DNA of 64,000 bases from Bugulina stolonifera (Eukaryota > Bryozoa > Gymnolaemata > Cheilostomatida > Bugulidae). Below the pieces are notes generated by a model. The model saw only the letters and a program-made list of their open reading frames with translations, did no database searches and was not told the DNA's origin. This document shows positions 1,879 to 43,785 of the stretch, one piece after another (position 1 is the first letter of the stretch; each line of letters opens with the position of its first letter). Position numbers and translations under genes: made by a program. Where the stretch lies: contig OW285194.1 in the NCBI GenBank assembly GCA_935421135.1, positions 3,281,501-3,345,500 on the forward strand. The letters run 5' to 3'.

Positions 1879-1884
1879 ACTGTT
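1879..1884 (+). repeat. Target-site duplication ACTGTT, left copy
   Basis: Identical to 11265-11270, directly abutting the outer end of the inverted repeat on each side. Confidence 0.85.
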
Positions 1885-3127
1885 AGTAGTATAGTCAGTG
1901 CACTTCTAGACAGACACGCACTCATTGACCCCTGTTTTCAACCAATCACAAGCCGGTATTTCCGATTTCAACCAATCACAGAAGAGCACAAAAATTTTGC
2001 ACACGACCTTGCCAAGGTCACCCCAAAATCCCCCCTTCTGATTGGTCGAAAAAACATTTGCACACTTGACCCCAAACCCGGCCACGACCCCTTCCCTTCC
2101 TCCTTCCCACCCTCCTCCCCTCCCCCTCCCCCACCTCCCACTCCTCCCTCCTCCCCGCCACCGCCCTCGTCCCGTCCTCACCACCGCCACCGCCGCCGCC
2201 GCCACCACCGCCCTCACCACCGCCACCGCCGCCGCCGCCACCACCGCCCTCACCACCGCCGCCGCCACCGCCGCCACCGCCACCGCTGCCACCACCACCA
2301 CCGCCGCCACCACCGCCACCACCACCGCCGCCGCCACCACCACCACTGCCGCCGCCATCACCGTCATCACCGCCACCCCTCCTCCACCGCCGCCCACCCT
2401 CCCCCCCGCAACCCCCACTCACCCGAACGACCGATCGTTTGAGGCGGTCAAGCCGCGTCCGCCCACGTTGCGTGCGGCGCCGACCGTACACGTGGAGGCG
2501 ACGCCGGTGCCCCGTATCCACCGGGCCAAGCGACTAGGCAGCGGCCCGCCGCTTCTCCTGCGCCCTCCACTCGGAAAGCTTGTGATCTAAACGAGCGAAT
2601 TCGGCTGCGCTTCGCCTATAGCTCTCATTAGCGATAAGAAGAAGTACTACGGAAGGCTTGGTTTCAGCGATAAGAAGAAGTACTACGGAAGGCTTGGTTT
2701 ATGATGTGCATTGCATTGTTAATAATGTGTAAAGTCTTGGCTATAAATATACTGATGGGAAGAAGGGTTGTTTCTATAATATACATTGTATTGACAACAA
2801 AGAACCGTGTGCATGTGTTAAGTCAGCATATATAATGCATTAAATAAACTTTTCACAATGGTGACAATAGAATGAATAAAAGATTGTGTACACGTGTTAA
2901 AACACAATTGAAAGAATAAAAGACACATATTTAAAAGAGTATGTCATATCTGTTATTAGCAAGGAAGTCTGTGTGCATGTGTTAAGACAGTGTATATTAT
3001 ACATTAGATAAACTTTTCACAATAGTAGCAATAGAATAAATAAAAGGTTGTGTGCATGTGTTAAGTCAGCATTATGTAATATATTAAATAAACTTTTCAC
3101 AATAGTAGCAATAGAATAAATAAAAGA
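1885..3127 (+). repeat. Left long terminal inverted repeat
   Basis: It matches the reverse complement of 10054-11264 with only scattered differences. From the outside inward it holds three CCAAT-type boxes (near 1940, 1972 and 2038), a GC-rich CpG block with a CCACCGCC-type microsatellite (about 2090-2580), and an AT-rich tract of imperfect repeats rich in AATAAA on the plus strand (2840-3127, continuing to about 3530). A 36-bp direct duplication (gcgataagaagaagtac..., starts 2631 and 2667) is present here but single in the right TIR. The long Pro/Thr/Ala or Gly-rich open frames lack ATG starts and arise from the microsatellite. Confidence 0.9.
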
Positions 3128-3560
3128 TTGAGTGTATGTGTTAAGTCAGCATTATGTAATACATTAAATACACTTTTTACAACACTAGCAATAGAATGAA
3201 TAAAAAAGCTACATATGTAAAGGAGTATGTCATAGCTATTGTTAGCAAGAAAAGTCTGTGTACATGTGTTAAGGGCAGCATATATAATACATTAAATAAA
3301 CTTTTCACAATAGTAGCAATAGAATAAATAAAGATTGTGTACACATGTTGAAATATCATTGTAATATGATTTAAACACAATTGAAAGAATAAAAGACACA
3401 TATGTAAAGGAGTATGTCATAGCTATTATAGCAAGAGACAGCTGTGTGCATGTGTTAAGTCAGCACATATAATACATTAAATAAACTTTTTACAAAAGTA
3501 GCAATAGAATGTATAAAAGGATGTGTATAAGTGTTAGAATACCATTATATAATAATTTAA
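3128..3560 (+). repeat. Imperfect AT-rich repeats extending inward from the left TIR
   Basis: This continues the TIR's internal repeat (agcaatagaat, aataaactttt, gtgtgcatgtgttaag) for roughly three further diverged copies of about 130-140 bp that are absent on the right side. AATAAA motifs lie on the plus strand in most copies. No gene. Confidence 0.75.
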
Positions 3561-3732
3561 AAAAATAATTTAAAAAAAAAAATCCTCACTGATTTGCTAT
3601 CACATAAAAGTAAATGCAGAGGGAATGAGACACTACAGAGAGAGAGAGTGGGAGAAAGAGAGTGGGAGAAAAAAGAAAAAAAACTAAAGAAAAGATGATT
3701 AGAGCTTTTCTTCACTGACTCGAAGGTAAGCT

Positions 3733-6195
3733 TCAGCTTGTGCTATTACCTCTCTGTGAAGAAAAGAGTGGGGGAAAAGAAGCAGTAGAAGGAGTGGTAG
3801 TAATGGTAGTAGTAATAGTAGTAGTTGCAAGAGAAGAAGTAGAGGTGGTAATGTCTCCATTAGTAAGAGAGTTACTGATGGAAGAAGCATCTGAATCAAA
3901 ATGATGGTGAGAAGGGAGAGGAAATTGTGAAGAGCACACCCCAGACTTTACAGATATTTCAGGAGAATGAGAGGGTGAATGTGAAGAAAAGAGTGGAGGA
4001 AAAGAAGTAGTAGAAGGAGTAGTAGTAATAGTAGTAGTTGTAAGAGAAGAAGTAGAGATGGTAATGTCTCCATTAGTAAGAGAGTTACTGATGGAAGAAG
4101 CATCTGAATCAAAATGATGGTGAGAAGGGAGAGGAAATTGTGAAGAGCACACCCCAGACTTTAAAGAGAATGGAGTAGTAGACATCCCCTTAAAGAAGGG
4201 AGGGTATACTACCCCACCAACAGTTGTTGGAGTGTATGCGGGGATGAGTATTTTGGAAGGTGGAGAGTGACCAGTGACCCTTTGCAAAAAGGATATGGTC
4301 TTTTTTAATGAATAGATATCTGTTAGAAAGCGTGTGTTGAATGAGATGTGTCGGTAACAGGGCTTTCCATCAATATGATGATTAGATGGAAAGTTGTAGT
4401 GTCTATTCATCCCCTCATCATCTACTGTTATGTGATAGCAAAACCAGATTCGGAGCAAAAAATGTTGTTGAATGTGGACACCTCGTCGGTGCCCAACATT
4501 CTTATTGCATAAAAAGCAGGGGTCATCCGATTCAAATGGCTTTGTTAGTGACATCTCCAGTCTTCTTTTTGTCTCATCACTAACAAAGACATAGAATCTT
4601 AGACCCCCCTTACATATCGGCTTTGCTCTGAGTCCTAAAAAAGAAAGAAAATAACAAGAATAAGTGAGAGAGAACATATGACTTACTTGTAAATCAGAAA
4701 AAAAAAGATTCTAAATATACAAATAGATACTAGATCATTCTTACCTATCTCGAACCCATCTACTCCCCCACATTGTTCAAATAAAGCAATTTCTTCTTCC
4801 CCTAGTTCTGTTTCTTTTTCATTCTATAATGTAAATAAAATGTGCAGAGACTAATTAACAAGCTACATTAACATAGTTATTTGTAATATATGGTTTTTGA
4901 AGAATTTAATGAAAAAACTAGCACTCTAAGTACTAAGCAAGTCTACTAAAGCCTGTCTATTTACTCACATAAAGAGAAATACATCATTAACATAAGAAAA
5001 CCAGTTGTAATTTATGTTATATTTTTTCACATAAGAAAAGAAAAAAAAGTGTCTTATTGATAAAAATAATACATAAGAAAGAAAGTGCAATACTTATAAT
5101 AAAAATATCACTAATCTTTAACATCTTAGACATGGTAAGAGACTTATAGAATTAGAGAAAATCATACTATGGCTAATTAACATCTGGTTTTAAAAAGGAA
5201 GTAGTCTCTTTTGACATTCTAGACATGGTAAGAGGCTTATAGTATAAAAAAGTACATCATCATTATGTGTAACTAACATGTACTTCTGAAGAAATGTCAG
5301 TAATCTCCTTTGACATCTTAGAAACCCAACACCATAGTGGATTGAAGGTGTAATGCATGTGTGAACAAATAAGATAATATACTAACCATTTCTGGAGATG
5401 GGATTCTTTTCCTCGAGATTCGTCTTCTGTCTTCCGAATCGTACGTAATCATATACTTCATACCTTTTTTTGATGTTTTAATTTTTCTTATATATTTCTT
5501 TCTTTGATATTTAGATGTAGAAGCCTGTAAGTATATGTAGAGTAATAAACATATACCAAAGCATGAGTCAAGTAGATGGAACTACTAATGCAACATAGTT
5601 ACTAAAGAAAGAAACACTACAGTGGTATAACCACTTATAATAAAGTTTCTAAGCTCTGATCACACTGATTGCAGTATAGACAGAGCAGATCTCTACACAC
5701 ATGCTCTCATGTTGAGAATCAAAACAGTTTAATATATAAGCTTACAACGTTTTTAAGCCCCGGACATACCAAGGGAGAATTATACCACTACTAAAATACA
5801 ATTAGCCCCAATGTTAACTCAAATGAGTAAGTTCATATTAAAATACATATTAAAATAGCTAGGATGTACTAGTATAGCCACTACAAGTGGTAATAAACTG
5901 TTTTGATACTTATTACACTACTAGTGGTATAACTACTCATATTGAAAATAAATCTCACCACATATAAAGCTTCTAAGCTCCGGTCACACAAATTGTAGTA
6001 TAGACAGATCAGATCTCTACATACTTGCTCTCATGTTGAGAATCAAAACAGTTTAATACATAAGCTTACAAAGTTTCTAAGCTCTGGTCATACCAAGGGA
6101 GTATTATATCACTACTAAAATGGAATTAGTCCCAATGTTAACTCAAATGAGTAAATTCATACTAAAATACATATTAAAATAAGTTTACTCACCAT
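3733..6195 (-). CDS. Cargo gene A of the TIR element: unrecognised 373-residue protein, four coding exons
   Basis: Exons on the minus strand: 6195-6193 (the ATG alone), 5524-5387, 4823-4745 and 4634-3733. All junctions are GT-AG and the frame is continuous for 374 codons including the stop. Upstream on the minus strand lie a TATA-like CATAAAAG (6303-6312) and an inverted CCAAT box (6322-6329). Residues 2-47 are strongly basic (Lys/Arg-rich, nuclear-signal-like). Residues about 48-73 are acidic. Residues 80-230 look folded and contain C113, C116, H122, H127 and H131, a possible zinc-binding cluster. The rest is Ser/Thr/Pro-rich and includes an in-frame 213-bp (71-codon) duplication. I do not recognise the family. 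Nuclear location is inferred from charge alone. Confidence 0.7.
5090..5320. repeat. Diverged direct repeats in intron 3 side of gene A
   Basis: The motif tagacatggtaagag-cttatag occurs twice about 110 bp apart, preceded each time by a variant of tctt-gacat-ct. A third partial copy lies near 5310. This is the intron between exons 5524-5387 and 4823-4745. Confidence 0.6.
5640..6185. repeat. About 322-bp tandem duplication in intron 1 of gene A
   Basis: The block beginning tctaagctctgatcacac (about 5647) is repeated from about 5970. The order of shared segments is the same in both (agatctctaca, gctctcatgttgagaatc, accaagggag, aactcaaatgagtaa). The copies differ at roughly one base in ten. Confidence 0.85.
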
Positions 6196-6302
6196 ATTAA
6201 TTGTTGAGTGATGTTTATTCAGAGAAATCAGTAAATATCCACAGAGTTGCAAGTCTTTACTAGGTGGTTGAGTGGTAATGATAAAAATCCTCTCTCACGC
6301 TT

Positions 6303-6329
6303 GCTTTTATGGAAATCTCTGTCCAATCA
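6303..6329 (-). promoter_or_regulatory. Putative TATA and CCAAT boxes of gene A
   Basis: Read on the minus strand, CTGATTGG is followed by CATAAAAGC, about 110 bases upstream of the ATG at 6195. The same CCAATCAG and TATA pair stands upstream of the divergent gene on the other side of the minisatellite. Confidence 0.5.
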
Positions 6330-6359
6330 GAAGTGATGTGCCTTTTTTTAGTCTGATTT

Positions 6360-8450
6360 ATTGCATCCCGATGTGATTCGATGTAACCCGATGTAACCCG
6401 ATGTAACCCGATGTGTTTTCGACCTCCCCCGATGTGTTTTCGACCTCCCCCGATGTGATTCGATGTGTCTCGATGTGTTTTCGACCTCCCCCGATGTGAT
6501 TCGATGTGTCCCGATGTGTTTTCGACCTTCCCCGATGTGACCCGATGTAACCCGATGTAACCCGATGTAACCCGATGTGTTTTTTACCTCCCCCGATGTG
6601 TTTTCGACCTCCCCCGATGTGATTCGATGTGTCTCGATGTGTTTTCGACCTTCCCCGATGTAACCCGATGTAACCCGATGTGTTTTTGACCTCCCCCGAT
6701 GTGATTCGATGTGTCCCGATGTGTTTTCGACCTCCCCCGATGTGATTCGATGTGTTTTCGACCTCCCCCGATGTGATTCGATGTGTCCCGATGTGTTTTC
6801 GACCTCCCCCGATGTGATTCGATGTGTTTTCGACCTCCCCCGATGTGATTCGATGTGTTTTCGACCTCCCCCGATGTGATTCGATGTGTTTTCGACCTCC
6901 CCCGATGTGATTCGATGTGTTTTCGACCTCCCCCGATGTGATTCGATGTGTTTTCGACCTCCCCCGATGTGATTAGATGTGTCCCGATGTGTTTTCGACC
7001 ACCCCCGATGTGTTTTCGACCTCCCCCGATGTGATTCAATGTGATTTCGACCTCCCCCGATGTGATTCGATGTGTTTTCGACCTCCCCCGATGTGATTCG
7101 ATGTGTTTTCGACCTCCCCCGATGTGATTCGATGTGTTTTCGACCTCCCCCGATGTGATTAGATGTGTCCCGATGTGTTTTCGACCACCCCCGATGTGTT
7201 TTCGACCTCCCCCGATGTGATTCAATGTGATTTCGACCACCCCCGATGTGTTTTCGACCTCCCCCGATGTGATTCAATGTGATTTCGACCTCCCCCGATG
7301 TGATTCAATGTGTTTCCGCCCTCCCCCGATGTGATTCGATGTGTCCCGATGTGTTTTCGACCTCGCCCGATGTGATTCGATGTGTTTTCGACCTCCCCCG
7401 ATGTGATTCGATGTGTTTTCGACCTCCCCCGATGTGTTTTCGACCTCCCCCGATGTGATTCGATGTGTTTTCGACCTCCCCCGATGTGATTCGATGTGTT
7501 TTCGACCTCCCCCGATGTGATTCGATGTGTTTTCGACCTCCCCCGATGTGATTCGATGTGTTTTCGACCTCCTCCGATGTGTTTTCGACCTCCCCCGATG
7601 TGATTCGATGTGTTTTCGACCTCCCCCGATGTGATTCGATGTGTTTTCGACCTCCCCCGATGTGATTCGATGTGTTTTCGACCTCCCCCGATGTGTTTTC
7701 GACCTCCCCCGATGTGATTCGATGTGTTTTCGACCTCCCCCGATGTGATTCGATGTGTTTTCGACCTCCCCCGATGTGTTTTCGACCTCCCCCGATGTGA
7801 TTCGATGTGTTTTCGACCTCCCCCGATGTGATTCGATGTGTTTTCGACCTCCCCCGATGTGATTCGATGTGTTTTCGACCTCCCCCGATGTGTTTTCGAC
7901 CTCCCCCGATGTGATTCGATGTGTTTTCGACCTCCCCCGATGTGATTCAATGTGATTTCGACCTCCCCCGATGTGATTCGATGCGTTTTCGACCTCCCCC
8001 GATGTGATTCGATGTGTCCCGATGTGTTTTCGACCTCCCCCGATGTGATTCGATGTGTCCCGATGTGTTTCCGACCTCCCCCGATGTGTTTTCGACCTCC
8101 CCCGATGTGATTCGATGTGTTTTCGACCTCCCCCGATGTGAATCGATGTGTTTTCGACCTCCCCCGATGTGATTCGATGAGTTTTCGGCCTCCCCCGATG
8201 TGTCCCGATGTGTTTTCGACCTCCCCCGATGTGATTCGATGTGACCCGATGTGTTTTCGACCTCCCCCGATGTGATTCGATGTGTCCTGATGTGTTTTCG
8301 ACCTCCCCCGATGTGATTCGATGTGTCCCGATGTGTTTTCGACCTCCCCCGATGTGTTATCGACCTTTCCCGATGTGTTTCGATGTTTCCCTATGTGTTT
8401 TTGATCTTTCCCGATGTGATTCGATGCACTCTGATGTGTTTCCAATGCGC
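6360..8450. repeat. 2.1-kb minisatellite between the two cargo genes
   Basis: Built from about 10-, 11- and 21-bp modules, chiefly cgatgtgatt, cgatgtgtttt and cgacctccccc, assembled into frequent 31-bp units and longer patterns. A large part repeats in identical order (compare about 6960-7060 with 7150-7290). The long open frames (His/Gly/Arg/Ser-rich) exist because the modules lack stop codons. There is no start context or splice structure supporting a gene. Confidence 0.95.
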
Positions 8451-8470
8451 TCCAATGTATATGCTGTTAG

Positions 8471-8510
8471 CCAATCAGCTTTATTTGTATCTTTTTATTC
8501 ACTATATAAA
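8471..8510 (+). promoter_or_regulatory. CCAAT and TATA boxes of the IkB-like gene
   Basis: CCAATCAG at 8471-8478 and TATATAAA at 8503-8510 stand about 90 bases before the ATG at 8597, immediately outside the minisatellite. Confidence 0.6.
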
Positions 8511-8596
8511 GAGAGGTGGAAACAGTAGTTTAGTTAACTCTTTCTAGCTCCAGTCTGTTCTTAATAGAAATTAAAGAAGGTTAGCACACAAATAGC

Positions 8597-10037
8597 ATGG
8601 AAAGTGGATATGGATCAAGCGAGTATAGCAACAAGCTAATGACTCCTATAAACCAAGAGCTGATGAAGGTAACAGTGGAAAGATGTACAGAACAAAGCAA
8701 GTATGAGAATAAAGACTTATTTGAGGGGGTGTCTGAGCTCTTTCTCCAAAAAAGCTTACCTCTAGACTGGCAGAAATGGGATCCTTTAACCGATATCCGT
8801 AATAAGCTTAGCACACAGTTACTAGAAGAAATTCGTTCTATCTTTTGGGAGCAAGATGGAAAGGATGAAGAGTTGTAAGTTATACATACTTCCAACTATT
8901 TTTTTTTGTTTCGTATTGTCTTTTATGATCAAAATGAAATATGATAGACAAATTTCCCATATAACTACCTCTCAACTATGTGAAAAACAAATATCATGCT
9001 AAATGATGTAGTGAGGTACTAGAAGCAGCCCGAGATAGAGATGAGAGAGCCGTTGCACTCGCGGTATTTGTTGCGAGGAGTCACAAACAACTGAATACAA
9101 AGAATGCGAATCGGCAGACGTTACTTCACCTAACTGTACAGTCTTATTGTTCGGATTCACTAATTCGCCTCATCATCACAAGGGGAGCGGATGGAGCAAT
9201 AGCCGATGCTTGGGGTTAGTGTTTTATAGCACCAATGTTTGCATGCATTGCTTGTTAAAAAATATAGTGTTGCAAAACTTGTAACAATTCGGTACTTATC
9301 TATATTGCTAATGTTTATTTGGAAGGTGACACCCCCCTTCACATTGCTGCACGTCTGGGTAGAGCTAAGGTTATTCATGCTCTAACCACAAGTTTGACCA
9401 GAGTAGAAGTAAAGCATCCATACTTCAGAGTTCCTTACAAATCACTTCCCCAAGACAATGTACAGAGCTACAATCATGATGGAAGGAGTGTAGTCCACCT
9501 CATTGTTGAAACAGCGCATAGCAGCAAGCATAGAGAGGCACTAAAGGTACTAAAAAAAAATACTCGGGCTGACTTAGATATGAGGGTAAGTGAATACATT
9601 ACAGTGGAATAAAAGTAGAGTAGATCGAATTGATAAGTTAGATGGGGAGTTTAATTCTATTCTCTTGTTTGATATTATAGCGAATGGGAGATGGATACGC
9701 CCCATCTCACATTGCCATAGAGAATGAAGACTACGAATGTCTACATACATGTCTAAGATTGGGAGCTGATTCTGAAGTTCGTAACTACAAAAGTGAAACT
9801 CCTCAACAACTAGCTCACCTCTACAAATCAGCAGATATGGTAAGGGACCAACAACATAAAGAAGTATAGATTTCTTGCTTTGTCCACCTTGAGTGATATT
9901 CGTCTGAGTAAAAAACTAAAATCATCTTGTAGGTAAGACTGTGTCAAGAGTTTGGAGCTGGAGCATATCAATTAGAGTATGCTGAGACCGAAGTCGTAAA
10001 CATTATAGCTCCTACGACTTCTGATGAAGATGAGTAA
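8597..10037 (+). CDS. Cargo gene B of the TIR element: IkB-like ankyrin-repeat protein, 334 residues, five exons
   Basis: Exons 8597-8874, 9012-9214, 9326-9585, 9681-9839 and 9933-10037 join in frame with GT-AG junctions to 335 codons. Ankyrin signatures are seen at about 127-160 (TLLHL), 161-190 (DTPLHIAA), 205-240 (VVHLI) and 252-290 (HIAIENEDY), plus a weaker one to about 315. The N-terminus has ESGYGS at residues 2-7, which fits the D/E-S-G-hydrophobic-x-S phosphodegron of IkB proteins. The C-terminus is short and acidic (ends SDEDE). Overall size and layout match IkB/Cactus proteins, which hold Rel/NF-kB factors in the cytoplasm. A role in altering host NF-kB signalling is inference; another ankyrin function is possible. 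The stop codon lies 17 bases from the inner edge of the right TIR. No disabling mutation is visible. Confidence 0.8.
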
Positions 10038-10053
10038 TAAGTACCTAAACTCC

Positions 10054-11264
10054 TCTTTTATTTATTCTATTGCTACTATTGTGAAAAGTTTATTTAATAT
10101 ATTACATAATGCTGACTTAACACATGCACACAACCTTTTATTTATTCTATTGCTACTATTGTGAAAAGTTTATCTAATGTATAATATACACTGTCTTAAC
10201 ACATGCACACAGACTTTCTTGCTAACAATAGATATGACATACTCTTTTAAATATGTGTCTTTTATTCTTTCAATTGTGTTTTAACATGTGTACACAATCT
10301 TTTATTCATTCTATTGTCACCATTGTGGAAAGTTTATTTAATGTATTATATATGCTGACTTAACACATGCACACGTTTCTTTATTGTCAATACAATGTAT
10401 ATCATAGAACCAACCCTTCTTCCCATCAGTGTATTTATAGCCAAGACTTTACACATTTCTTTATTAACAATGCAATGCACATCATAAACCAAGCCTTCCG
10501 TAGTACTTCTTCTTATCGCTAATGAGAGCTATAGGCGAAGCGCAGCCGAATTCGCTCGTTTAGATCACAAGCTTTTCGAGTGGGGGCGCAGGAGAAGCGG
10601 CGGGCCGCTGCCTAGTCGCTTGGCCCGGTGGATACGGGGCACCGGCGTCGCCTCCACGTGTACGGTCGGCGCCGCACGCAACGTGGGCGGACGCGGCTTG
10701 ACCGCCTCAAACGATCGGTCGTTCGGGTGAGTGGGGGTTGCGGGGGGGAGGGTGGGCGGCGGTGGAGGAGGGGTGGCGGTGATGACGGTGATGGCGGCGG
10801 CGGTGGTGGCGGCGGCGGTGGTGGTGGTGGCGGCGGTGGTGGCGGCGGTGGTGGTGGTGGCGGCGGTGGCGGTGGCGGCGGTGGCGGCGGCGGTGGTGAG
10901 GGCGGTGGTGGCGGCGGCGGCGGTGGCGGTGGTGAGGGCGGTGGTGGCGGCGGCGGCAGTGGCGGTGGTGAGGACGAGACGAGGGCAGTGGCGGGGAGGA
11001 GGGAGGAGTGGGAGGTGGGGGAGGGGGAGGGGAGGAGGGTGGGAAGGAGGAAGGGAAGGGGTCGTGGCCGGGTTTGGGGTCAAGTGTGCAAATGTTTTTT
11101 CGACCAATCAGAAGGGGGGATTTTGGGGTGACCTTGGCAAGGTCGTGTGCAAAATTTTTGTGCTCTTCTGTGATTGGTTGAAATCGGAAATACCGGCTTG
11201 TGATTGGTTGAAAACAGGGGTCAATGAGTGCGTGTCTGTCTAGAAGTGCACTGACTATACTACT
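10054..11264 (-). repeat. Right long terminal inverted repeat
   Basis: Reverse complement of 1885-3127 with the same order of CCAAT boxes, GC-rich microsatellite block and AT-rich AATAAA tract, here read on the minus strand. It lacks the 36-bp duplication of the left copy and has small length differences in the GC-rich microsatellite. High similarity of the two arms suggests recent insertion or gene conversion. Confidence 0.9.
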
Positions 11265-11270
11265 ACTGTT
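11265..11270 (+). repeat. Target-site duplication ACTGTT, right copy
   Basis: Perfect copy of 1879-1884 at the outer edge of the right inverted repeat. Confidence 0.85.
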
Positions 11271-13560: not shown

Positions 13561-15383
13561 ATGAATACTACTGTACCTCGACTGTTGCAAGATGGTCATC
13601 CAAGAAGAGTAGGTACATTCATCCACTACTTCAGAATGCCCGAGGAACTGTTTGCAGACCTGTGTCAGAAACTGGCACCTATCATACAAAAAGCTGACAC
13701 TAACATGAGACCAGCTGTAGATGTCAAAACCAGATTGGGTTGCACGCTAAGATATTATTTTGGCTACAGGATGCACAATGGCTGACCTCCACTATGACTT
13801 TCGTCTTGGTAAGCAAATATATTGAATTCTTAATTAAATAACACACCATCGATGGGCTTTACTTGACAAGTAGACTAGTCTATTTATATTGTATGTTCTT
13901 ATAATTGCAGGAGTAAAAACTATCTCAAACATAATTCATGAAACATGTGCAGCCCTATATGAGGTCTTGCAACCGCAGCACCTTTGCATGCCTAGCTCAG
14001 CAGAGGAATGGAGAGCAGTGGCAGATGAGTACTTGGCTCGGTGGAATTACCCTCATTGCCTTGGCTCTCTAGATGGCAAACACATCGTAAGTGATGATAT
14101 TATTATTATGCCTACTAGGCATTAAAACAAACATTGCTCAAATTACAACATTCATGCATAGTGATTGTTATTTGTATGTACATGTACATGTATGTATGAA
14201 TTTTATATTTCAAGCTTGTGCAGTTATGGAATAATTTGTAATATAAATTTCTTTAGAGAATTACTAAGCCTAAAGGAGCTGGGTCAGAGTACCACAACTA
14301 CAAAGGGTTCGAGAGTCTAGTGCTCATGGCCATAAGCGATGCTCGGCAAAGGTATGTCGTGTAAACTAACATCCATATTACTAATTATGTCAGCTCAGTA
14401 CTGTTAGCTTAAAGGGGTTATGCCATGTGTTTTATGCCCATCTTCAAACCAGCTGCTATTATTCAGGTTACTAAGAATTGGCTTGGAAGTCACGGAGTTG
14501 TGCTCTCTTGGCTACATTTAAGAAGCCAAGACTTAAACAAAATACTGGATAGCTTGTTACTAAGTAATTAATCATTAATACGGATTTCAGGTTTATATAT
14601 GTCAGTGTTGGAACAAATGGCCGTAGTTCAGATGCAGCCATATGGAAAGACTCTGATTTGCAGAGGAGGTTAGAAAATGGAAGCATTGGTGCACCCCCAC
14701 CAACACCACTCCCTCTCACGACTGATGCTGTGCCTTATCACTTCATTGGAGATGAGGCTTTTCCTCTCAAATTATACTTAATGAAGCCCTATCCCAGAGC
14801 AACGCAGCAGCTACATCATGATCGCCTTGTCTACAACTATAGGCTTAGTCGAGCAAGAAGGATAGTAGGTATGCATCTAACCGACGTATTTATATATATT
14901 ATTTTGCAATTCTAAGGGCATGTAGTGAACAAAGTTATGTTTGTACACTGTAGGAAAACAACTTTAAAAGAGCGCTTTGAAAGAATAATTACATTATATG
15001 CTATTTCACTAGTTGCCCTATATATTATAGAGAATGCATTTGGAAGACTAGCAGCAATGTGGAGAATCTTTCACAGGCCAATCGACCTTAATCCTACTAA
15101 AGTTGACAGTCTGGTGCTTGCTTGCTGTTGCCTACACAACTACTTGTTGGACCACAATGTAACGGCCTACACAACAGATGTAGATGCCTATGTCAGCAAC
15201 GGTAGTTGGAGGGAAGAAGTGGATGGGGAACTTTTACCTCTTCAAAGAAGGTTGAGTGGCAATAATCCCTCACGAACTGCTAAACAGATGCAAGAAACTT
15301 TAACTAAATGGTTTAATAATGTAGGAAGCGTGGAGTGGCAAGACAGGATGGTTGCTGTTGGCCAGGGTGTGCCATATAACTAA
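13561..15383 (+). pseudogene. PIF/Harbinger DDE transposase, five exons, frameshifted in exon 1
   Basis: Exons about 13561-13808, 13911-14086, 14257-14351, 14591-14868 and 15031-15383. The Harbinger catalytic blocks are present: SLDGKHI (first Asp, end of exon 2), IGDEAFPL (second Asp, exon 4) and VENAFGRL (Glu, exon 4/5 junction). In exon 1 the frame breaks near 13752-13759: an apparent 4-base duplication (tatt) sends the frame into a stop at 13783. The next frame continues the expected protein (ATGCTMADL...) to the splice site. The ATG at 13561 starts a plausible N-terminus, and an untranslated or missed upstream exon is possible. The enzyme would cut and paste the element with help from the MADF protein. 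Confidence 0.88.
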
Positions 15384-41284: not shown

Positions 41285-43785
41285 GTGGTCCCCACAAGTA
41301 CTCTGATAGAGAGTATCACATGCACACACTCAATATAATATAGTTAGACTGCTAGCGGTCCCGCAAGTACTCTTATAGAAAGTATCACATGCACACAGTT
41401 TATATAATATAGTTAGACTGCTAGCGGACCCCACAAGTACTGCCATAGAAATCATGTCATGCACACAGCGAATACAATAACTTTAGTCGGATGGTGGTCC
41501 CCACAATGACCATCAATAGGAGTATCACACACACACAGCCAATATAACATAGTAGGACTGCTAGCGATCCCCACAAGTACTCTTTTAGAAAGTGACACAT
41601 GTACACAGTCAATATTATATAGTTAGACTGTTAGCGGTCCCCACAAGTGCTCTTATAGAAAGTGTGACATGCACACAGCCAATATAATATAGTTTGACAG
41701 GTAGCGGACCCCACAAGTGCTCTTATAGAAAGTGACACATGCACACAGTCAATATAATATAGTTAGCGGTCCCCACAGGTGTTCTAATAGAAAGTGTCAC
41801 ATGCACACAGTCAATATAATATAGTTGGCGGTCCCCACAGGTGTTCTAATAGAAAGTGTCACATGCACACAGTCAATATAATATAGTTAGACAGGTAGCG
41901 GACCCCACAAGTGCTCTTATAGAAAGTGTCACATGCACACAGTCAATATAATATAGTTTGACAGGTAGCGGTCCCCACAAGTGCTCTTATAGAAAGTTAC
42001 ACATGCACACAGTCAATATAATATAGTTTGACAGGTAGCGGACCCCACAAGTACTCTTATAGAAAGTGTCACATGCACACAGTCAATATAATATAGTTTG
42101 ACAGGTAGCGGACCCCACAAGTGATCTTATAGAAAGTTACACATGCACACAGTCAATATAATATAGTTTGACAGGTAGCGGACCCCACAAGTACTCTTAT
42201 AAAAAGTGTCACATGCACACAGTCAATATAATATAGTTTGACAGTTAGTGGTCCCCACAAGTGCTCTTATAGAAAATGTCACATGCACACAGCCAATATA
42301 ATATAGTTTGACAGGTAGCGGACCCCACAAGTGCTCTTATAGAAAGTTACACATGCACACAGTCAATATAATATAGTTTGACAGGTAGCGGACCCCACAA
42401 GTGATCTTATAGAAAGTTACACATGCACACAGTCAATATAATATAGTTTGACAGGTAGCGGACCCCACAAGTACTCTTATAAAAAGTGTCACATGCACAC
42501 AGTCAATATAATATAGTTTGACAGTTAGTGGTCCCCACAAGTGCTCTTATAGAAAATGTCACATGCACACAGCCAATATAATATAGTTTGACAGGTAGCG
42601 GACCCCACAAGTGCTCTTATAGAAAGTGACACATGCACACAGTCAATATAATATAGTTAGCGGTCCCCACAGGTGTTCTAATAGAAAGTGTCACATGCAC
42701 ACAGTCAATATAATATAGTTAGCGGTCCCCACAGGTGTTCTAATAGAAAGTGTCACATGCACACAGTCAATATAATATAGTTATACAGGTAGCGGACCCC
42801 ACAAGTACTCTTATAGAAAGTGTCACATGCACACAGTCAATATAATATAGTTTGACAGGTAGCGGACCCCACAAGTACTCTTATAGAAAGTGACACATGC
42901 ACACAGTCAGTATAATATAGTTAGCGGTCCCCACAAGTACTCTCATAGAAAGTTACACATGCACACAGTCAATATAATATAGTTAGACAGGTAGCGGACC
43001 CCACAAGTACTCTTATAGAAAGTGTCACATGCACACAGTCAATATAATATAGTTAGACAGGTAGCGGACCCCACAAGTGCTCTTATAGAAAGTGTCACAT
43101 GCACACAGTCAATATAATATAGTTTGACAGGTAGCGGACCCCACAAGTACTCTTATAGAAAGTGTCACATGCACACAGTCAATATAATATAGTTTGACAG
43201 GTAGCGGACCCCACAAGTGATCTTATAGAAAGTTACACATGCACATAGTCAATATAATATAGTTTGACAGGTAGCGGACCCCACAAGTACTCTTATAAAA
43301 AGTGTCACATGCACACAGTCAATATAATATAGTTTGACAGTTAGTGGTCCCCACAAGTGCTCTTATAGAAAATGTCACATGCACACAGTCGATATAATAT
43401 AGTTAGACAAGTAGCGGACCCCACAAGTACTCATATAGAAAGTGTCACATGCACACAGTCAATATTATATAGTTAGACGGTTAGCGGTCCCCACAAGTGC
43501 TGTTATAGAAAGTATCACACGCAGACAGTCAATATAATATAGTTAGAATACTAGCGGACCCCACAAGTACTCTTATAGAAAGTTACACATGCACACAGTC
43601 AATATAATATAGTTTGACAGGTAGCGGTCCCCACAAGTGCTCTCATAGAAACTGTCACATGCACACAGTCAATATAATATAGGGCCTAGTTAGACGGTTT
43701 GTGGACCCCACAAGTACTTTTATAGAGAGTATCACTTGCACACAATCAATATAATATAGTTAGACAGTTAATACTATGAGTCCTC
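41285..43785. repeat. 2.5-kb satellite-like array of about 70-bp and 60-bp units
   Basis: About 36 units of agtcaatataatatag, (tttgacagg), tagcggaccccacaag, tgctcttatagaaag, tgtcacatgcacac. A shorter class of about 60 bp lacks the 'tttgacagg' segment. Blocks of several units recur in the same order (for example 42000-42300 and 42340-42600), showing higher-order duplication. Degenerate units continue at about 44680-45020. Confidence 0.95.

Follow-up and report, generated by a model that had tools for sequence, protein, structure and literature searches.

A stretch of 64,000 nucleotides from chromosome 8 of the bryozoan Bugulina stolonifera (the window) contains a mobile element of 9,380 bp, at positions 1885..11264, that combines the ends of a Polinton with two spliced genes, one of them a relative of the NF-κB inhibitor IκB/Cactus. 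Elements with the same ends are numerous in the genome. Those of the window type we term class A; others encode an integrase and a protein of predicted capsid fold (class B), and a third group showed no genes in the parts read (class C). We consider it probable, at about 80%, that class A is a non-autonomous element with Polinton ends that is inserted by the class B integrase, copied by a polymerase, PolB, provided in trans, and equipped with an IκB directed against the NF-κB of the host. An earlier note, made on the window sequence, had read the element as a non-autonomous relative of the Polintons, and this reading is now supported by the integrase and capsid-fold protein of the related elements and by the motif at the ends. 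The genome totals 234,951,659 bases, and its assembly, tzBugStol2.1, has been published (PMC10213821).

The element is recognized by its inverted repeats, its ends and the genome-wide counts of its terminal 30-mer. It is flanked by a perfect 6-bp duplication, ACTGTT, at 1879..1884 and 11265..11270 (read by eye). Immediately inside lie the left arm of the inverted repeat (1885..3127, plus strand) and the right arm (10054..11264, minus strand), of 1,243 and 1,211 nt, which align at 94.9% identity with three gap openings and include ungapped blocks of 682 nt at 99% and 404 nt at 97%. The termini are AGTAGTATAG...CTATACTACT, with the form AGTAGT...ACTACT. The repeats of 1.2 kb, the AG...CT ends and the perfect duplication reported in the earlier note are all present as described. 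Vertebrate Polintons, or Mavericks, have the same (AGT)2//(ACT)2 ends and 6-bp duplications, and the repeats of class A fall within the 46–1,447 bp published for them (PMC8097293). No integrase, polymerase or capsid gene was recognized in the window element, either among its open reading frames (ORFs) inspected by eye or on comparison of its two gene products with Pfam, in agreement with what had been noted previously. Class A has the 6-bp duplication and the long inverted repeats with (AGT)2//(ACT)2 ends that are expected of a Polinton, while the integrase, PolB, the capsid, ATPase and protease genes and an intronless gene structure were not found in it. For this reason we class it not as a Polinton itself but as a non-autonomous element with Polinton ends. 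It is possible that in its history viral genes were replaced by cargo.

The plus-strand gene has five exons, at 8597..8874 (splice model and homology) and 9012..9214, 9326..9585, 9681..9839 and 9933..10037 (splice model), the last containing the stop codon, with a second stop in the next three nucleotides. The predicted protein of 334 residues contains ankyrin repeats (Ank_2, E = 5.6e-13). Its best relative is Bugula neritina ‘cact’ (71% over 87%, E = 1.7e-132), and the next is Watersipora subatra ‘NF-kappa-B inhibitor alpha-like’ (60% over 85%, E = 1.8e-107). On this evidence of homology we assign the gene as an IκB/Cactus relative. The related bryozoan proteins extend beyond it at both ends. 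The N-terminal signal-response motif of IκB is DSGxxS; the element protein begins MESGYGSS, and its relatives have DSGFMS, MDSGLGS or MESGYES. Mobile or viral relatives of IκB are also found in the vankyrins of polydnaviruses, which are described as lacking the region for regulated degradation and as blocking NF-κB signalling in flies (PMC3757122). By analogy with these shortened proteins, the element IκB might hold back host NF-κB while the element replicates. The two cases differ in the carrier.

The second gene, U, lies on the minus strand, divergent from the first, and has four exons. The putative first exon is the ATG alone (6193..6195); it is followed by exons at 5387..5524 and 4745..4823 (splice model) and by a fourth at 3733..4634 that encodes a partly duplicated tail rich in Ser and Thr. 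No relative of U was found at E ≤ 0.001 among approximately 5.8 billion proteins (145 candidates), nor did any NCBIfam model match it; a match to PLAT (E = 0.0033) was below the cut-off. Of the two genes that the earlier note took to be host-like, one is the IκB/Cactus relative; U has no known relative. That both are multi-exon genes is borne out, since each follows GT..AG splicing and the splice sites are intact in other copies wherever the exon is complete. A minisatellite of CGATG type (6367..8426) separates the two genes, and weakly similar arrays occur in classes B and C.

How large is the family to which the element belongs? The terminal 30-mer, allowing up to three mismatches, is found 552 times in the forward and 552 times in the reverse orientation in the 235-Mb genome, and its reversed control not once in either. 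A search with the ends, as the earlier note had recommended, thus reveals many other copies, and we count the equal numbers in the two orientations as support for our reading. The first 100 listed of the 552 + 552 end places pair into 50 elements that average 10.4 kb; extrapolated to 552, this gives approximately 5.8 Mb. All 22 elements that were read at both ends (that in the window and 21 others) have perfect 6-bp duplications; they represent 20 separate loci, as three share their flanks and derive from one duplicated locus. Class B elements at C1:14200014, 14298523 and 14359530 have flanks that are 99.5–99.75% alike and the same duplication, and were therefore copied together with their surroundings. 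The family behind these ends is large and young. For vertebrate Mavericks, the published account gives a median of eight copies, with 287 as the highest number named, against the 552 ends per orientation here (PMC8097293). In a genome search the joined flanks of the window element matched the filled locus alone, and none of the loci fetched spanned a joined site of any of the 16 elements that were tried.

Genome-wide, the IκB and U markers of class A occur at 150 and 141 places respectively, and the integrase marker of class B at 199. The class C marker is present at 86 places, mostly as opposed pairs about 1 kb apart (one element holds four), and so these represent approximately 40 elements. 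Each of the 50 listed end pairs carries a marker, 22 being assigned to class A (two by U alone), 26 to class B and two to class C, and the median lengths are 9.5 kb for class A and 10.7 kb for class B. Classes A and B have some 668 bp of repeat in common, 94% alike in the pairs compared, corresponding to the outer part of the left arm in the window. In the parts of class C that were read (2.7 kb in one element, 5.0 kb in a second) there are repeats only and no genes. The elements at C1:17537468-17546033 and C3:2413203-2421575 are 8.4–8.6 kb in length, and the sequence read from them contains AT-rich repeats and CGATG minisatellites in inverted orientation. The marker counts leave roughly 160 of the 552 end pairs without a class, and on C1 and C2 some markers are located outside the listed pairs (2 of 22 for IκB, 3 of 25 for U and 5 of 30 for the integrase); such cases may be copies in which ends or markers have changed, or may belong to an additional class.

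Class B provides the clearest link to the Polintons. Ten of its ORFs were scanned against Pfam. One contains an rve integrase domain (E = 2e-11) together with a Chromo domain (E = 1.2e-6), and this integrase also matches retroviral and Ty3-type integrase chains. Another match is to the ATPase Pox_A32 (E = 1.4e-6), and there is a weak match to the adenovirus protease (E = 0.1) that is below the cut-off. None of the ten ORFs matched PolB. Thus, of the two enzymes that the earlier note looked for in relatives with the same ends, the retroviral-type integrase is present and no PolB was found; PolB is encoded instead by another family, of approximately 15 kb, that shares only the first 9–10 nt. For a frame of 461 residues, sequence collections contain 40 relatives, including an identical one. 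The predicted fold of this frame (mean predicted local distance difference test score, pLDDT, of 81.5) matches the capsid proteins of PBCV-1, Sputnik and mavirus with E values from 1e-16 to 1e-13, and on the basis of this model the protein has the double-jelly-roll capsid fold. When the model was compared with a library of viral structures the first match was a bracovirus-associated protein (25% identity, template-modelling score 0.36), and scans of viral contigs with the protein, either as a single sequence or as an alignment, gave no relative. Two class B ORFs bear some resemblance to minor capsid and core proteins, to which we give no weight. The ten class B ORFs are uninterrupted frames, and 55 of 60 are unbroken when each is compared in six copies; two genes of copy e25 and two of copy e29 contain stops, and one e29 gene has a 2-nt gap. 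One class B copy is 17 kb long, and ORFs at its local positions 2208-4881 resemble a hAT-type transposase by eye alone; this is probably a nested insertion.

Where might the polymerase come from? A search of the genome with PF03175 gave 11 matches at 10 loci, and the five loci on C1 and C2 fall in none of the listed end pairs of classes A, B or C. One of them lies in an element of 15,049 bp (C1:4278024-4293072) with 513-bp repeats at 99.6%, the duplication TAATAT on both sides and an encoded ATPase (E = 1.1e-11); a short ORF looks integrase-like by eye and had no match in Pfam. Variant end pairs surround four further PolB loci (14.8–15.1 kb), and there is a single such end at a fifth. The result is a PolB family of approximately 15 kb in six copies, of which five are bounded by an end on each side and the sixth by one end only. 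Four further PolB loci, assigned to no family with known ends, are located at C1:22080281, C7:13185903, C4:2175281 and C10:9729434. All six copies begin AGTAGTATA, the 9 nt with which classes A, B and C also start, and in two copies the match extends to 10 nt. In the Mavericks of vertebrates, which commonly end (AGT)2//(ACT)2, the repetition is said to permit the jumping-back step of protein-primed replication (PMC8097293). Given the shared start and this role of the end repeat, it is reasonable to infer that PolB is supplied in trans to classes A, B and C. The steps would then be as follows. The class B integrase would recognize the common ends and insert class A, class C and its own element with a 6-bp stagger. 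Protein-primed copying would begin at the terminal AGT-AGT repeat and be carried out by PolB acting in trans, most likely from the six-copy family beginning AGTAGTATA, and the class B capsid may package class A.

Seven class A copies were compared; the pairs share ancestry and are not independent. Five of the seven retain a complete IκB frame. Gene U has no stop in the aligned parts of all seven, where the alignment is without the 3′ end in six, and in copy e27 its insertions and deletions are in multiples of three. In the parts of the IκB coding sequence compared, copy e1 is identical to e35 and e10. The ratio of non-synonymous to synonymous differences (pN/pS) for IκB is 0.04 between e1 and e7 (p = 2e-4) and 0.27 between e1 and e27 (p = 0.0012), and for U it is 0.30 between e1 and e27 (p = 3e-5). 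For the ten class B genes pooled, the ratio is 0.17–0.37 in five diverged pairs, with a value of 0.17 (p < 1e-15) for both e2–e22 and e2–e29. These ratios indicate purifying selection on both cargo genes between diverged copies.

A number of observations weigh against our reading. Part of the IκB gene is gone in two of the seven copies, the last two exons in e35 and part of exon 4 in e10. The test is not significant for the window element with e5 (p = 0.23) or for e7 with e27 (p = 0.054) in IκB; for the window element with e1 (p = 0.33), e5 (p = 0.23) or e7 (p = 0.46) in U; or for e2 with e11 (p = 0.052) or e21 (p = 0.2) in class B. Taken singly, the class B protease and a 195-residue ORF display no excess of silent changes between e2 and e29. 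The core of the class B integrase matches models of IS481 (E = 2e-14) and IS3, below the cut-offs of those families, and a sequence search of the PDB with the capsid profile gave no related chain. No PolB was found with the ends of class A, B or C, six of the ten PolB loci having been read; replication is thus a step that we infer, while movement and packaging of classes A and B, expression of the cargo genes and inhibition of NF-κB are predicted steps. Lastly, no separate host IκB gene was recognized on searching the genome with the Bugula protein, where 104 of 895 candidates were scored. The places listed have about 68–76% identity, none of them holds an IκB gene that is clearly nearer to the Bugula protein than the element copies are, and the best three each adjoin a class A marker (by eye). 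A separate host gene may have been missed or may be absent.

Non-autonomous families are common, and class A could be a passive passenger, a deleted element that acquired host DNA by accident and to which the genes are useless. The two copies without part of IκB and the absence of a significant test among the closest copies speak for this, and class C spreads although it is gene-less. Yet the differences between diverged copies are mostly silent in both genes, the splice sites are conserved, the indels of U in e27 keep to multiples of three and there are 141–150 marker copies, so that we think this explanation improbable. An origin in another superfamily that makes 6-bp duplications, IS3EU, GingerRoot or Dada, for the last of which no search was made, is very improbable. 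The duplications are not decisive by themselves, and the sub-threshold matches of the integrase to IS481 and IS3 could be read in that way. But the ends of IS3EU and GingerRoot are described as mostly TA..TA (PMC10045372), against AGTAGT...ACTACT here, which are the (AGT)2//(ACT)2 ends of vertebrate Mavericks (PMC8097293) and bear out the assignment to Polintons in the earlier note. Moreover, class B combines a chromodomain integrase, an ATPase and a protein of capsid fold.

A further explanation takes classes A and B to be complementary parts of a divided (multipartite) virus of Polinton type. Here B would bear the integrase and virion genes and A those directed at the host; the two would travel in one type of capsid, and PolB would reside on a third molecule or be borrowed. 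The two classes have the same ends, similar sizes (among the 50 listed pairs, medians of 9.5 kb for A and 10.7 kb for B) and similar copy numbers (150 versus 199 markers); their gene sets do not overlap, and there is selection on both. The two gene-less, repeat-filled class C elements of 8.4–8.6 kb would fit a minimum packaging size. There is also a precedent in the bidnaviruses, whose PolB was taken from a Polinton and which are divided into up to twelve segments (PMC11071296). On the other side, there is no sign that A and B need each other, and a satellite simply exploiting B would give the same picture; no PolB part with the shared repeat of about 670 bp was found, and the class C lengths come from two copies. 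We regard a divided virus as possible but doubtful. Only tentatively, then, might one speak of a divided system with an integrase and virion part, a part with spliced, host-derived regulators, an IκB among them, and a gene-less part of similar length filled with repeats, with PolB from a distant Polinton that has the same nucleotides at its termini, in hundreds of copies with genes under selection.

Some other features lie in or near the window. An 11-bp tandem array at 1-1087 adjoins the insertion, and there is a 70-bp tandem array at 41290-43767. A fragment of a DDE_Tnp_4 transposase (E = 2.9e-7) is located at 14925-15383, which we take to be of Harbinger type. About 5.5 kb before the window start, at C8:3274897-3276047, the family is represented by a further inverted-repeat arm, which is 93% alike.

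The view that Polintons are integrated viruses is widely held, and members of the Polinton family that carry cargo have been described before. How, then, does the preferred reading, of a non-autonomous class A served by class B and by PolB in trans, relate to known systems? Like class B, vertebrate Polintons have an integrase, an ATPase and a capsid protein, and unlike them class A is without core genes found here and class B without a detected PolB; the genes of published intact Mavericks are intronless, where those of class A have five and four exons (PMC8097293). Mavericks of nematodes carry host-type genes as class A does, namely wosp proteases and krma kinases, but are described with integrase, polymerase and capsid proteins, whereas class A has its ends and two cargo genes alone (PMC10680173). 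Class B resembles the adintoviruses in its rve integrase with C-terminal chromodomain and its adenovirus-like virion genes; the adintoviruses are partly defined by PolB, which was not detected in class B, and class A is without any adintovirus genes (PMC11071296). Tlr1 and the PolB-less Polinton-like viruses likewise encode an integrase or capsid protein while having no standard PolB, but those named encode another replication protein or are also without integrase, and in class B no replication protein was recognized (PMC11071308, PMC11071296). In the open-licence literature no paper on bryozoan Polintons was found with ‘bryozoan’ and ‘polinton’ (texts using ‘Bryozoa’ only would escape), there was nearly no match for divided or satellite Polintons, and we encountered no description of an element without core genes that carries a spliced IκB gene and is accompanied by an integrase and capsid partner without PolB.

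Our analysis describes an element with Polinton ends and no core genes by which a relative of IκB, intact and spliced, is spread, in the company of related elements bearing integrase and capsid genes. It makes a specific case that a mobile element of an animal uses an immune brake that it has captured and that Polinton families sharing their ends can be mobilized in trans; it may also be a case of a divided Polinton genome. With very similar copies, and with the published assembly and RNA data of the species, each of these steps is open to testing.

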